Below are positions 3,645-9,208 of a DNA stretch of 64,000 nt, piece after piece. Made by a program: the position numbers and the translations under genes. Origin of the DNA: Pedobacter arcticus A12 (GTDB taxonomy: Bacteria; Bacteroidota; Bacteroidia; Sphingobacteriales; Sphingobacteriaceae); contig NZ_JH947127.1 of the NCBI RefSeq assembly GCF_000302595.1, forward strand, positions 911,501-975,500, read 5' to 3'. Numbering within the stretch: the stretch's first letter is position 1; each line of letters opens with the position of its first letter. Below the pieces are notes generated by a model. The model was not told the origin of the DNA. It saw only the letters and a list, made by a program, of their open reading frames with translations, and did no database searches.

Positions 3645-4676
3645 CTATTCTGGCTCCACCATTAAAGTTACCCCAGAAACAGCATCCTTAATTTTAGCTT
3701 CCAGTTCATCAGAAAGTTCTGGGTTATCCATTAAAAGTTGTTTAACAGAATCTCTTCCTTGTCCTAATTTGGTATCGCCGTAGCTAAACCATGAACCTGC
3801 TTTTTTTACAATGCCATATTCAACACCTAAATCAACAATTTCCCCAACTTTAGAAATTCCCTGTCCAAACATAACGTCAAACTCTGCAATTCTAAAAGGC
3901 GGTGCAACTTTGTTTTTCACGATTTTTACCTTCACACGGTTACCCGCTACTTCATCGCTATCCTTAATCTGCGCAATACGACGAATATCTAAACGAACCG
4001 AAGCATAAAATTTCAATGCATTACCACCGGTTGTAGTTTCTGGACTACCGAACATTACCCCAATTTTGTCACGCAATTGATTGATAAAAATACAGCAACA
4101 ATTAGTTTTACTGATGGTTCCGGTTAACTTACGTAAAGCTTGAGACATTAAACGAGCGTGTAAGCCCATTTTAGAATCTCCCATTTCGCCTTCAATCTCA
4201 CTTTTTGGAACCAATGCCGCAACAGAGTCAATCACAATTACATCAATTGCTCCAGAACGGATCAAATTATCAGCAATTTCTAAAGCTTGCTCTCCGTTAT
4301 CTGGTTGCGAAATCAGCAAGTTCTCTATATCAACACCTAATTTTTTAGCATAGAACTGGTCAAAAGCATGTTCAGCATCAATAAATGCAGCAATCCCACC
4401 TTTTTTCTGTGCCTCAGCAATAATATGCGTAGCTAAAGTAGTTTTACCTGAAGATTCTGGACCATAGATTTCAATTACTCTACCTTTTGGCACTCCGCCA
4501 ATACCCAAAGCTATATCCAAACCTAAAGAACCCGTAGAAATAGCCTCCATAGCTTCTATTGGCGCATCGCCAAGTTTCATCACAGCTCCTTTACCATAAG
4601 ATTTCTCTAACTTATCTAAGGTTAATTGTAATGCTTTTAATTTGTCACTACTTGCTTTATCGTTGCTTGCGGCCAT
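3645..4676 (-). CDS. recA: Recombinase RecA
   Basis: Full-length RecA (343 residues), the DNA-dependent ATPase that forms filaments on single-stranded DNA, drives strand exchange and triggers the SOS response. The Walker A motif GPESSGKTT lies near residue 70. The RecA signature [14 protein letters not shown], loop L2 with [12 protein letters not shown], and the acidic C-terminus are present. The start MAASNDKAS is chosen over an ATG 42 bp upstream because the additional residues are basic and not part of the family. The upstream region is AT-rich; no clear SOS box was recognised. Core gene, highly confident. Confidence 0.98.
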
Positions 4677-4810
4677 GTATGTTTTTTTAGTATTTGTCTT
4701 AATTATTTTCTTTAACAATGCAAAAATGCTAATTTTTTTGGTAAATCCAAATTTATAAATATAAACTTAACTAAGTACCTTGGCATTTCAAATTAATGTG
4801 AATAAAATGC

Positions 4811-5563
4811 TTACTTAATTGCTCGTTTTTTTAATTCTCTAGCTAATTTATCTTTCTTTAATTTCAGAGATTTCTGTTTTGCCTTCTTAATTTCTGCTTC
4901 TTCTTTCTTTTTAAACGCGGTGGGCGTATTGTGCTGGGCATAGTATTTACAGAAATGACTGATGGGGCAAATATCACATTTCGGACTGCGGGCAACACAG
5001 ATATATCTACCATGTAAAATCAACCAGTGATGGGCAATATGAATTTTATCTTCAGGAAGGTATTTCACCAGTTGTTTTTCTACCGCTAAAGGCGTTTTTG
5101 CTGCTGTAGTTAAACCCAAACGATTAGAAACCCTAAAAACATGCGTATCCACCGCCATTGTTGGCGCATTATAAATTACAGACGCAATTACATTCGCCGT
5201 TTTACGTCCAACGCCTGGCATTTTTTGCAAATCATTTATTTCTTCTGGCACTATCCCTTTAAATTCACTGAGCAGAATTTTCGCCATCCCCACTAAATGT
5301 TTTGCCTTATTATTAGGATAACTTACTGAACGGATATAGTTAAAAACTTCATCAGAGGTTGAGGATGATAAAGATTCTGGCGTGGGATACCGCTCAAATA
5401 ATTTGGGAGTAATTTGATTGATGCGCTTATCTGTACACTGTGCAGAAAGTATTACAGCAATCAGTAATTCAAACGGATTAGAATAATTTAATTCTGTTTC
5501 TGCCTCAGGCTGATGTTTTGAAAAATAATCTACAAAAGCTTGGTAGCGATCTTTTTTTAGCAT
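4811..5563 (-). CDS. nth: Endonuclease III (base-excision repair glycosylase/AP lyase)
   Basis: A 250-residue Nth protein that removes oxidised pyrimidines and cleaves at abasic sites. The helix-hairpin-helix LQKMPGVGRKTANVI carries the catalytic lysine K121, and the catalytic aspartate is D139 in AVDTHV. The [4Fe-4S] ligands are C189, C196, C199 and C205 with the classic 6-2-5 spacing. Compared with the usual length of about 210-225 residues, it has an additional lysine-rich tail (from about residue 215), probably disordered and DNA-binding; such tails are common in Bacteroidota Nth. It lies between recA and a REP transposase gene on the same strand. Confidence 0.97.
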   Translation of the reverse strand: MLKKDRYQAFVDYFSKHQPEAETELNYSNPFELLIAVILSAQCTDKRINQITPKLFERYPTPESLSSSTSDEVFNYIRSVSYPNNKAKHLVGMAKILLSEFKGIVPEEINDLQKMPGVGRKTANVIASVIYNAPTMAVDTHVFRVSNRLGLTTAAKTPLAVEKQLVKYLPEDKIHIAHHWLILHGRYICVARSPKCDICPISHFCKYYAQHNTPTAFKKKEEAEIKKAKQKSLKLKKDKLARELKKRAIK

Positions 5564-5582
5564 TATCGGTTATTTTTTAAAG

Positions 5583-6224
5583 CTATCGCTTTTTGTAAAA
5601 TTTATCGTCAAACCACTTTGCAGGATTGTTTATAATGTAGTGAGAAATGTTTTGATAAGCCCTTTCGTCTCTGATGATGTGCTCATAATAATTGCGTTGC
5701 CACAATTTTCCCATTGTTTTATTTTTAGATTTAAAAATCTTTAAACAAGTGTTTGAAACGAGTGATTTATATGCGCCGACTATATCTGGAACGCTTGCTG
5801 TCGGGGCGGGGCTCGCCCCCGCCCTAAACCGCTCTGCTTGAACATCAAGTTCTGCTAAATCATTAGGCTTTGCTGAATCATCAAGCTTTACTAAATCAAT
5901 ATGAGCTGCGGGTGTTTGGGCAACCGCGAGGGTTGCCCCGACGTTGACATCAACATCTTTCAAAACAATAATCCCATGCATATGATTCGGCATAATCTGA
6001 AATACATCTAATTCAAAACAATCAAATCTTTCTGCAAGCTTAATCCATTCTGCATAAGCAATCTCTCCTAATTCATTCAACATCATCCCGTCCTCATTTA
6101 CTTCGCCAAATCGGCAAGCCATTTTTTCACAACAAATTGTAATAAAATAAGCTCCTGCTTTTGAGTAATCATATCCTTTTAAACGGATTGATCTACGATG
6201 ATGAATTCTCGGATCGTATTTCAT
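5583..6224 (-). CDS. REP-associated tyrosine transposase (RAYT, Y1/HUH family)
   Basis: A 213-residue single-strand DNA transposase of the IS200-like Y1 superfamily. The HUH motif is H81-M-H83 in MPNHMHGII and the candidate nucleophile is Y189 or Y190 in RNYYEHII, followed by the usual IRDERAYQNISHYI helix. RAYTs normally act on nearby REP hairpins rather than on insertion-sequence ends. Residues about 96-142, between the HUH strand and the tyrosine helix, form an odd low-complexity insert containing GATLAVAQ and RAGASPAPT. At DNA level this insert is two REP hairpins in opposite orientation that keep the frame open. The gene is otherwise intact, so it is probably functional. Confidence 0.9.
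   Translation of the reverse strand: MKYDPRIHHRRSIRLKGYDYSKAGAYFITICCEKMACRFGEVNEDGMMLNELGEIAYAEWIKLAERFDCFELDVFQIMPNHMHGIIVLKDVDVNVGATLAVAQTPAAHIDLVKLDDSAKPNDLAELDVQAERFRAGASPAPTASVPDIVGAYKSLVSNTCLKIFKSKNKTMGKLWQRNYYEHIIRDERAYQNISHYIINNPAKWFDDKFYKKR
5800..5824 (+). repeat. REP hairpin 1 inside the RAYT gene
   Basis: The 25 nt are, in order, the head GTCGGGGC, an arm GGGG, the loop CTCGC, the complementary arm CCCC and the tail GCCC. GGGC plus the arm pairs with the complementary arm plus the tail, giving an 8-bp GC stem. A GTCG head before a hairpin is the layout expected of a REP element recognised by a RAYT. It lies within the coding sequence of the transposase. Confidence 0.75.
5918..5942 (-). 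repeat. REP hairpin 2 inside the RAYT gene, inverted
   Basis: Read on the minus strand it has the same plan as the other copy: head GTCGGGGC, arm AACC, loop CTCGC, arm GGTT, tail GCCC. Only the four-base arms differ between the copies, and they differ on both sides so that pairing is kept. The two copies face each other across about 93 bp, a BIME-like inverted arrangement. Confidence 0.75.
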
Positions 6225-6288
6225 TTCAAAATAATAGACCTTTAAATTTAAAGATTTTTATCAGAAATAAAATCAATTTACACGATAA

Positions 6289-9150
6289 CTAAACTTTCGC
6301 TTTCTTCATACTCTCCATTTCCTTTTTTAAGAAAACGCCCGTAAAACTCTCCTTAACCTTAGTCAACCCTTTCGGTGTACCTGCATAAACAATGTTTCCG
6401 CCGCCAGAGCCACCTTCTGGGCCTAAATCCACAACATAATCCGCAACTTTAATCACATCTAAATTATGCTCAATTACCAAAACCGTGTTTCCTTTATCAA
6501 CCAACATATTCAACACGCCTAAAAGCACATTGATATCCTCAAAATGCAAACCGGTAGTTGGTTCATCTAAAATGTAAAAAGTGTTTCCGGTATCTTTTTT
6601 AGAAAGCTCTGTTGCCAGTTTCACCCTTTGTGCTTCTCCGCCAGATAATGTTGTAGATGACTGACCTAAAGTAATGTAACCTAACCCAACATCTTTTAAT
6701 GTTTTGATTTTACGATAGATTGAAGGAATATTCTCGAAGAAATCACAAGCGTCTTCAATGCTCATATCCAGCACATCAGAAATTGATTTCCCTCTAAAAC
6801 GAACTTCTAAAGTTTCGCGATTATAACGTTTACCACCACAAGCTTCACACGGAACCTGTACATCTGGCAAAAAGTTCATCTCAATCACCTTCATTCCACC
6901 ACCTTGGCAAGTTTCGCAACGCCCACCTTTTACGTTGAACGAAAAACGGCCAGGTTTATAGCCTCTAATCTGCGCTTCTGGCAATGCAACAAATAAATTC
7001 CTGATATCAGAAAAAACGCCAGTATAAGTTGACGGGTTTGAACGAGGAGTACGTCCGATCGGCGTTTGATCAATTTCAATTACTTTATCAATATGCTCTA
7101 AACCTTTAATTTCTTTAAAAGGCATTGGTGTTTTTTTAGCTCTAAAAAAGTGCTTGTTTAAAACAGGATAAAGCGTCTCGCCAATTAAAGTCGACTTTCC
7201 ACTTCCAGAAACACCGGTAACGCAAATAAACTTCCCTAAGGGAAAATCAACACTTACATTTTTTAAGTTATTTCCAGATGCTTTTTTCAATGATAAAACA
7301 TGACCGTTTCCTTCTCTTGTTTTTGCAGGAATTGCAATTTCTCGCTCTCCGTTAAGGTATGACGCTGTTAAAGTGTTAGAAGCTAAAACCTCCGCCGCTG
7401 TTCCTTGTGCAACTACTTGTCCGCCTTTAACCCCTGCTGCGGGTCCCATATCTATCACGTAATCGGCTTCTAAAATCATATCCTTATCATGCTCAACCAC
7501 CAAAACGGTATTGCTTAAATCACGGAGGTTTTTCAATGCTTTTATCAAACGATCATTATCTCTTTGGTGCAAACCTATGGAAGGTTCATCCAAAATATAC
7601 ATCACGTTCATCAGTTGCGAACCAATTTGCGTAGCCAAACGAATACGTTGTGCTTCCCCTCCTGATAAAGTTCTGGCAGTTCTGTCCAGCGTTAAATAAA
7701 CTAAACCAACATCCAATAAAAAGCCAATTCGTGAGCGAATTTCTTTCAAAATCTCTTTTGCAATTACATTTTGGCGTTCGCTTAATCTACCCTCTAAACC
7801 ATCAAACCATATTTGCAGGTTGCTGATATCCATCGAAGCCAATTCAAAGATATTCTTCTCATCAACTTTAAAATGGAGCGATTCTTTTTTAAGCCTTGCA
7901 CCTTCGCATAAAGGACATTTTTTCAAGACTCTAAAAGCCTCTAAATCCATACTGCTTGTGCCTGCTTTTTTCTCGTTCTGTTCTTCAAGCATTTTAATAA
8001 TGCCATCAAAATCTATCTGGTAATTTTGAACGTTCCATTTATTGTACTCTACCGGAACGGTAATTAATTCCTCTGTTCCGTGAAGCAAAATATCAATAGC
8101 TTTTGGATCCAGTTTCTCAATAGGTTGCGATAATGAGAATCCATACTTTTTACCTAAGGCTTTGATCACTTGGAATATCCAAGTTTCGCGATAATCGCCC
8201 AAAGGAGCTAAGCCACCGTTTAAAATGCTCAGTTTTCTGTTCGGGATAACAGATTCTTCATCTACATCAAAAATATAACCTAAACCATCACACTCTGGGC
8301 AAGCACCGTAAGGCGAGTTGAACGAGAAAGAATTTGGTTGAGGCTCATCGTAAGATACGCCCGTTGTTGGGCACATCAAATACTTAGAAAAATGGTAGCT
8401 GTTATTTTCCTTATCAGATATTTTAATAATTCCTTTAGCAATTTTTAATGCAGACTGGATAGAATCATATAACCGCTTTTTATCGTTTTGTGATACAATT
8501 AAACGATCAACAACGGTTTCGATATCATGAATTTTATACCTATCTAATTGCATTTTAGGCACAACATCTATAATTTCTCCATCTACACGCACTTTCAGAT
8601 ATCCTTGCTTACGGATTTGTTCAAAAAGTTCGCGATAATGCCCTTTTCTTCCCTTTACAACTGGCGCCAAAATATTGATAGGCTTTCCTTCAAATTGCAT
8701 TAAAATTTGGTTCATTATCTGATCTTCAGACATTTTCACCATTTTTTCACCAGTGTTGTAAGAGTAAGCATCGCCAATACGGGCATAAAGCAACCTCAAA
8801 AAATCGTAAATTTCTGTAATTGTACCTACTGTTGAGCGTGGGTTTTTGGAAGTGGTTTTTTGTTCGATAGCAATAACCGGGCTCAAACCCGAAACTTTAT
8901 CCACATCGGGGCGTTCCATGCCACCCATAAACTGGCGGGAATATGCAGAAAAAGTCTCCATATACCTACGCTGACCTTCGGCGTAAATGGTATCAAAAGC
9001 TAAGGAAGATTTCCCCGAACCGCTTAAGCCAGTAATTACTACCAGCTTATTGCGAGGAAAAGAAATATCTATATTTTTTAAATTATGAACTCGGGCACCG
9101 TAAACTTCAACCTCACTTTGTTCACCCAAATCAATTGGCTTATCACTCAT
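6289..9150 (-). CDS. uvrA: Excinuclease ABC subunit A
   Basis: UvrA (953 residues), the damage-recognition ATPase of nucleotide excision repair, working as a dimer with UvrB. Two ABC ATPase modules are visible: Walker A GLSGSGKSS near residue 40 with signature LSGGEAQRIRLA in the first, and GVSGSGKST with LSGGEAQRVKLA in the second. Zinc-binding CPECDGLGY and CETCQGGG...CEACGGKRY clusters are present. The start MSDKPIDLGEQ is preferred over an in-frame ATG 39 bp upstream, whose additional residues are not family-like. Length is normal. A TAATTTTG promoter-like box lies about 60 bp upstream. Confidence 0.98.
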   Translation of the reverse strand: MSDKPIDLGEQSEVEVYGARVHNLKNIDISFPRNKLVVITGLSGSGKSSLAFDTIYAEGQRRYMETFSAYSRQFMGGMERPDVDKVSGLSPVIAIEQKTTSKNPRSTVGTITEIYDFLRLLYARIGDAYSYNTGEKMVKMSEDQIMNQILMQFEGKPINILAPVVKGRKGHYRELFEQIRKQGYLKVRVDGEIIDVVPKMQLDRYKIHDIETVVDRLIVSQNDKKRLYDSIQSALKIAKGIIKISDKENNSYHFSKYLMCPTTGVSYDEPQPNSFSFNSPYGACPECDGLGYIFDVDEESVIPNRKLSILNGGLAPLGDYRETWIFQVIKALGKKYGFSLSQPIEKLDPKAIDILLHGTEELITVPVEYNKWNVQNYQIDFDGIIKMLEEQNEKKAGTSSMDLEAFRVLKKCPLCEGARLKKESLHFKVDEKNIFELASMDISNLQIWFDGLEGRLSERQNVIAKEILKEIRSRIGFLLDVGLVYLTLDRTARTLSGGEAQRIRLATQIGSQLMNVMYILDEPSIGLHQRDNDRLIKALKNLRDLSNTVLVVEHDKDMILEADYVIDMGPAAGVKGGQVVAQGTAAEVLASNTLTASYLNGEREIAIPAKTREGNGHVLSLKKASGNNLKNVSVDFPLGKFICVTGVSGSGKSTLIGETLYPVLNKHFFRAKKTPMPFKEIKGLEHIDKVIEIDQTPIGRTPRSNPSTYTGVFSDIRNLFVALPEAQIRGYKPGRFSFNVKGGRCETCQGGGMKVIEMNFLPDVQVPCEACGGKRYNRETLEVRFRGKSISDVLDMSIEDACDFFENIPSIYRKIKTLKDVGLGYITLGQSSTTLSGGEAQRVKLATELSKKDTGNTFYILDEPTTGLHFEDINVLLGVLNMLVDKGNTVLVIEHNLDVIKVADYVVDLGPEGGSGGGNIVYAGTPKGLTKVKESFTGVFLKKEMESMKKAKV

Positions 9151-9208
9151 GTTTTTGTATTCTCCTTCTGTAATTAAAACATCAAACACGTTTTTGTTTT
9201 AAAGCCTG

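Follow-up and report, generated by a model that had tools for sequence, protein, structure and literature searches.

In-frame REP-like hairpins inside a RAYT gene of Pedobacter arcticus, a possible substrate carried by the gene itself

The stretch of DNA analysed here (the window, 64,000 nt of Pedobacter arcticus A12; GCF_000302595.1, NZ_JH947127.1, 911,501-975,500; all positions are those within the window) contains a RAYT gene with two GTCG-footed REP-like hairpins in its reading frame, and the exact positions, pattern and open reading frame given for them in a preliminary description are confirmed. The reading which we favor, at a probability of roughly 55%, is that this feature works as the enzyme's own inherited REPIN; the earlier suggestion that the gene carries its own substrate remains a good one, judged from sequence. 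Under this proposal, a subclass-2.4 (group 4) RAYT would hold a REPIN inside its frame, in the linker that joins its HUH and tyrosine halves, and would recognize and cut its very own in-gene hairpins as single-stranded DNA. Enzyme and cognate substrate would be inherited and transferred as one piece, a lone RAYT gene such as that of the window could seed a REP population, and the hairpin-encoded peptide would be merely a tolerated flexible loop. We know of no settled account of RAYT-REP matching over time or of the start of new REP populations; if enzyme and substrate share one frame, both become testable by recoding the hairpins with the protein unchanged. In-gene REPs in this RAYT subclass were already published in 2018, to which the GTCG foot and the orphan state are added here.

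The gene, its hairpins and its genome

The features discussed below are as follows.
5583..6224, minus strand: RAYT/TnpAREP (Y1 HUH nuclease) gene, 213 aa (ORF, profile searches, fold match)
5976..5993, minus strand: HUH motif MPNHMH, residues 78-83 (alignments A1 and A2)
5918..5942, minus strand: 5′ in-gene REP hairpin GTCG-GGGCAACC-CTCGC-GGTTGCCC, residues 95-103, VGATLAVAQ (pattern search, DNA folding, homologue comparison)
5825..5917, minus strand: 93-nt spacer, hairpin to hairpin (sequence)
5800..5824, plus strand: 3′ in-gene REP hairpin GTCG-GGGCGGGG-CTCGC-CCCCGCCC (pattern search, DNA folding, homologue comparison)
5670..5702, minus strand: WQRNYYEHIIR, residues 175-185 (alignment to 4er8)
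5637..5639, minus strand: probable catalytic tyrosine Y196 in YIINNP (invariant in A1 and A2; class-2 motif)

The open reading frame possesses the HUH and single-tyrosine motifs of a RAYT (NHMH, residues 80-83, and YIINNP, residues 196-201), which vary little or not at all across alignments A1 and A2, with M78, P79, N80, H81 and H83 invariant in both. Pfam Y1_Tnp (PF01797) matches it at E 2.8e-7, exceeding the cut-off. The NCBIfam model REP_Tyr_transpos scores 62 bits against a cut-off of 80 and matches residues 143-203 alone, as would be expected if the insert splits the match. An AlphaFold2 model computed from alignment A2 (the window protein and 33 of 67 references, 34 sequences) has a mean pLDDT of 80.7 with a confident core. 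A Foldseek search with it puts 4er8, the complex of E. coli TnpAREP with a REP hairpin, at rank 1 among PDB entries (E 2.2e-7), but with a TMq of 0.45 and an rmsd of 7.1 across 187 columns. In the 4er8 alignment the W, Q, E, H and R of the window protein fall on W94, Q95, E100, H101 and R104 of the E. coli enzyme, which are residues of its GTAG-guide region (PMC6006769); these being conserved, changes at them do not account for the GTCG foot. Between strand 81-88 and helix 145-166 the model has a low-confidence stretch, within which a short helix (120-134) is predicted; block-mean pLDDT over residues 91-140 is 47-64, and residues 96-106 lie below 50. Both hairpin-encoded stretches fall mostly within residues 91-140, that at 134-142 extending into the better-predicted part, and the modeled insert is probably a disordered loop.

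A search of the window with GTCGGGGC-N4-CTCGC-N4-GCCC, allowing up to three mismatches, returned two matches, both perfect, at 5800-5824 (+) and 5918-5942 (−); shuffled sequences gave a mean of 0.01 matches, and none of 100 shuffles gave two. Each hairpin measures 25 nt, with arms GGGG/CCCC at 5800-5824 and AACC/GGTT at 5918-5942, and forms, in DNA folding, an 8-bp stem closed by a 5-nt loop, with the GTCG foot left unpaired (−11.3 and −9.3 kcal/mol). The pair lies in frame between the HUH motif (residues 80-83) and Y196, the 3′ hairpin encoding residues 134-142 on the coding strand (the RAGASPAPT region; coordinates derived by hand). The hairpins had been described as facing each other as in a BIME: they do form a facing pair, the correction being that it is the loops that face inward, with the GTCG feet directed outward, which is REPIN-like, tail to tail.

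Elsewhere in the P. arcticus genome the strict hairpin pattern revealed nothing beyond these two copies, both inside the RAYT gene, where dispersed copies would typify a REP. The head GTCGGGGC occurs 16 times, compared with 29 for the reversed control, and only two occurrences have a stem; GTAGGGGCN{9,14}GCCC gave no matches and GTAGAGACN{8,14}GTCT one; GGGGCN{9,14}GCCC gave 14 against 19 for the control, an 8-bp stem being seen by eye only in the two known hairpins. Neither the strict nor the looser patterns thus turned up a genomic REP population of this type in P. arcticus. The preliminary description had named two findings that would tell against its proposal; one of them, a lack of other genomic copies, is what was found. 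Nor does the region 4584-7224 hold a further hairpin that has a GTNG foot and 7 or more perfect pairs, as a REPtron would require. With neither flanking REPs nor a population, there is no sign that the gene is active now.

Among the closest known systems is subclass 2.4, or RAYT group 4, whose marks are NH[IFV]H, WQ, YIxNNP and a variable insertion between β3 and αC, the tyrosine motif of class 2 as a whole being Y---NP (PMC6006769). Judged by the motifs described there, the window protein is a Bacteroidota-type RAYT of this kind, possessing NHMH (M for I/F/V), WQ, YIINNP and REP hairpins in frame in the variable linker between HuH and Y. Quentin et al. (2018; PMC6006769) describe in-frame REPs inside subclass-2.4 tnpAREP genes at the very place of the window's hairpins, and consider that these may affect the protein little. 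Their REP search used GTAG and GTGG feet, whereas both window hairpins have GTCG in place of the GT[AG]G foot of GTAG-type REPs, a foot absent from the main text of that paper; unlike the cases described there, no REPs flank the window gene. The E. coli REPtron, in which TnpAREP is flanked by REP pairs, shares the enzyme fold, the guide-contact residues and the paired inverted REPs, but the window REPs lie inside the gene and not around it, and no genomic population was found. At the ends of IS200/IS605 elements (IS608, ISDra2), the hairpins, which are recognized as single-stranded DNA by a Y1 HUH transposase of matching fold, flank the element, whereas those of the window lie inside the coding sequence. 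Short palindromes in frame in coding sequence are also known as intragenic REPs and Rickettsia RPEs: Di Nocera et al. (2013; PMC3733652) report REPs within many other genes. In those cases the hosts are unrelated genes and the inserts copies of repeat families; in the window the host gene is the transposase itself and the hairpin follows the transposase lineage. A literature search, covering the main text of mostly open-access papers, returned no study that asks whether in-gene hairpins track the RAYT lineage or the host genome.

Hairpins across homologous genes

Homologues were drawn from three sources: 100 relatives, of which 28 gave a match; 395 genomes of the class, of which 129 did; and 80 named loci. 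Set 1 began as 117 loci, 60 extra regions among them having been taken from part of the matches listed for the 395 genomes, and was reduced to 104 open frames with both halves, 102 distinct ones and, after removal of four without the motif expressions, 98 genes. Set 2 went from 80 loci to 79 open frames and, less two duplicates and three without motifs, to 74 genes. Under a strict rule (a GTNG foot with 7 or more perfect pairs, or 9 or more with a single mismatch), a linker hairpin is present in 73 of the 98 genes of set 1 and 57 of the 74 of set 2. Synonymous-codon shuffles, in which codons were moved over the whole open frame, gave means of 4.55 for both sets (maximum 10 in 100 shuffles and 9 in 40, respectively). 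A looser detector found 74 of 98 (null mean 9.45, maximum 15, 20 shuffles). By record title, the hairpin occurs in 26 of 30 Bacteroidota genes and 31 of 44 from other phyla in set 2. Outside the linker, 15 of the 98 genes of set 1 have a hairpin (null mean 1.61, maximum 5). The 25 genes of set 1 and 17 of set 2 whose insert has no hairpin under the strict rule count against the self-substrate reading.

For the pairing test each site was anchored on the foot and the outer four bases with their complement, and the inner four pairs were scored, which avoids selection for pairing. Such a site is present in 134 of 172 genes, amounting to 220 physical hairpins (55 of them footed on both strands), 190 in the linker and 30 elsewhere in the gene. 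Of 880 inner pairs, 849 are Watson-Crick and 12 G-T, whereas permuted partners pair in 34% on average and 39% at most (500 permutations, relatedness ignored); there are 72 different 8-nt arms. The feet are GTAG in 180, GTTG in 17, GTCG in 16 and GTGG in 7. Where a linker has a single plus and a single minus foot, the plus foot precedes the minus foot in all 40 such genes. The plus feet fall in codon phase 0 in 53 cases, phase 1 in 10 and phase 2 in none; a GTAG in phase 2 would give a stop codon. Six genes (L021, L035, L051, L055, L060 and L099) reveal a second permissive site in or near the N-terminal half, located in L055 between FGEI and MxLN.

The window RAYT is sister to a Sphingobacteriaceae group (L054, L190, L191 and L219; support 96/96). 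The same two hairpin positions are found in this sister lineage and beyond, so that recent insertion is rejected; an alignment of homologues had been proposed for dating the insert, and its answer is that the insert is not recent. Among the nearest genes, the 5′ hairpin is fully paired in 10 of 12 with a VGA start, L054 having one broken pair and L190 one G-T, and the 3′ hairpin in 7 of 11 with an APT end, L050 having one G-T. Decay is seen in the 3′ hairpins of L190 and L189, each with two mismatches and a G-T; that of L023 is unpaired in the common register, but a 26-nt form is present. The 5′ hairpins of the window and L054 are set apart by an A-T to G-C change that takes two synonymous substitutions and leaves the peptide VGATLAVAQ as it is, and a like difference separates the 3′ hairpin of L054 from those of L191 and L219, which could be compensation or arm copying.

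The preliminary description also stated that the arms change with pairing kept. This holds across homologous genes; within the window the contrast between the two hairpins, different sites of one gene, does not in itself amount to compensatory change. Point compensation between them was dropped; the lineage has two hairpin types in either order. With types assigned by eye as ACC..GGT and GGG..CCC, the order in L023, L050, L051, L062 and L193 is opposite to that in the window, L189, L192 and L194, a pattern that inversion of the pair, or its insertion in reverse, would leave. L193 comes from a MAG titled Candidatus Firestonebacteria, and its place inside the window's Bacteroidota RAYT lineage suggests either inter-phylum transfer or a misbinned contig.

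Gene lineage, genomic populations and rival readings

For genes from different genomes, sharing of the 8-nt arm climbs with the identity of the protein core: 0 of 664 pairs below 40%, then 46/3738, 168/3619, 122/780 and 37/89 in successive intermediate bins, and 6 of 9 at 80% or above. Close gene pairs from different genomes share an arm in 43 of 98 cases, whereas paralogues within one genome do so in 1 of 12, the sharing pair being 92% identical. On these sequence comparisons, the hairpin belongs to the gene lineage and is not drawn afresh from a genome-wide pool. Since a trend with ancestry is expected of any part of a gene, it speaks for inheritance and not for use; together with the kept pairing, it fits a self-carried substrate and is no proof of one.

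The window-type pattern GTNGGGGCNACCCTYGYGGTNGCCC occurs at 26 places in 14 of the 395 genomes, 10 of them in RAYT frames (8 genomes), one about 40 bases outside such a frame and 15 without a RAYT in the fetched stretch. Of 22 genomes with the in-gene GTAGGGGC hairpin, 9 have no copy beyond the gene ±300 bases and 4 have at least 10. The in-gene GTAGAGAC hairpin (21 genomes) is private in one and has at least 10 copies in 12, which counts against the self-substrate reading. In-gene here means fetched RAYT copies alone, and private genomes may be undercounted. Also counting against this reading is G412, where the in-gene hairpin belongs to a large genomic population. G183 and G394 likewise count against it, having populations (at 89 and 19 places, respectively) for which no in-gene copy was seen; the RAYT of G183 lacks an insert hairpin, and G394 gave no RAYT match in the search of the 395 genomes. 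In G159, G304 and G327 the exact in-gene type is found only in the gene among the matches listed, these genomes having 25, 16 and 10 other places of the class.

Two other readings deserve weight. Mobilized REPs may land widely and survive in a harmless linker loop without function in the gene, a reading near that of Quentin et al. (PMC6006769) and Di Nocera et al. (PMC3733652), and one that we regard as possible yet rather doubtful. It is congruent with the low confidence of the loop in the model, with the 30 of 220 hairpins at other sites of the gene, with genomes such as G412 that have populations of the identical hairpin, with the decay in L190 and L189, and with the suggestion of Quentin et al. 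(PMC6006769) that there is little effect on the protein. Insertion from the genome accounts poorly for an arm common to 1 of 12 paralogue pairs against 43 of 98 close pairs across genomes, for the want of an outside copy in 9 of 22 GTAGGGGC genomes and in that of the window, and for the exact type being confined to the gene, among the matches listed, in G159, G304 and G327 despite their 25, 16 and 10 class places. Alternatively, and in our estimate with similar odds, the hairpins might be maintained by mutation: polymerase template switching within or between inverted hairpins copies arms, and would yield pairing, turnover and swaps of orientation without selection. Such switching homogenizes inverted-repeat arms and inverts spacers in coding DNA (Sci Rep 2021; PMC8604942), a 2022 PNAS paper on RNA hairpins points the same way, and both the G-C in both hairpins of L054 set beside the A-T in both of L191 and L219, like concerted change, and the two type orders, AB and BA (labels by eye), in the window lineage are what it would produce. 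It leaves unexplained the kept GTNG foot outside the stem, the outward feet in 40 of 40 ordered genes and the linker as the usual hairpin site.

The covariation had earlier been taken to indicate selection for structure. That claim goes beyond what is shown, since template switching gives like covariation and two relatives have a decayed 3′ hairpin; with REP populations lacking an in-gene copy as well, selection for hairpin structure is not proven. The data do bear on what share of stem covariation in DNA hairpins is due to selection rather than template switching. A role at the RNA level, in which mRNA hairpins slow translation or bind the protein and so give autoregulation, appears very unlikely: the predicted RNA fold of the 153-nt coding strand beats shuffles (z −3.25), with both hairpins formed and their feet paired together, but the DNA fold is likewise better (z −3.29), so the fold is no pointer to RNA. 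To return to the inherited REPIN, a broader form can be put forward tentatively, with the odds against it: the in-gene REPIN of subclass 2.4 might be a kept, self-carried cognate substrate, specificity and arms might co-diversify, a transferred gene might found a population, and the orphan of the window might represent the seed-only state.

The locus and other RAYT genes

The window RAYT is flanked by what we take, from translation, synteny and general knowledge of the families, to be nth (4811-5563) and uvrA (6289-9189). A genome of the same genus, G001 (G001:C3, loci L030 and L276), has at the same place a 62-residue C-terminal RAYT remnant, 74% identical and without hairpins, from which we surmise that a RAYT was probably present at the nth-uvrA locus in the common ancestor of P. 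arcticus (G000) and G001. At the other 14 nth loci of the genus, neither uvrA nor a RAYT was matched in the flanking sequence fetched, which at some loci is cut short by a contig end.

In L208, from a Chloroflexi MAG, long runs of G and C lie beside a GTAG foot near the start of the frame, which may be an assembly oddity. The second RAYT of P. arcticus (G000:C5:135109-135714, locus L004) is 34% identical to that of the window and has a different in-frame linker hairpin, GTAGAGACAAGGCATGCCTTGCCT, with one mismatch. At G095:C2:2300426-2302062 (L028) RAYT genes stand in a row, two of which are 85% identical in their conserved halves and possess different in-gene hairpins.
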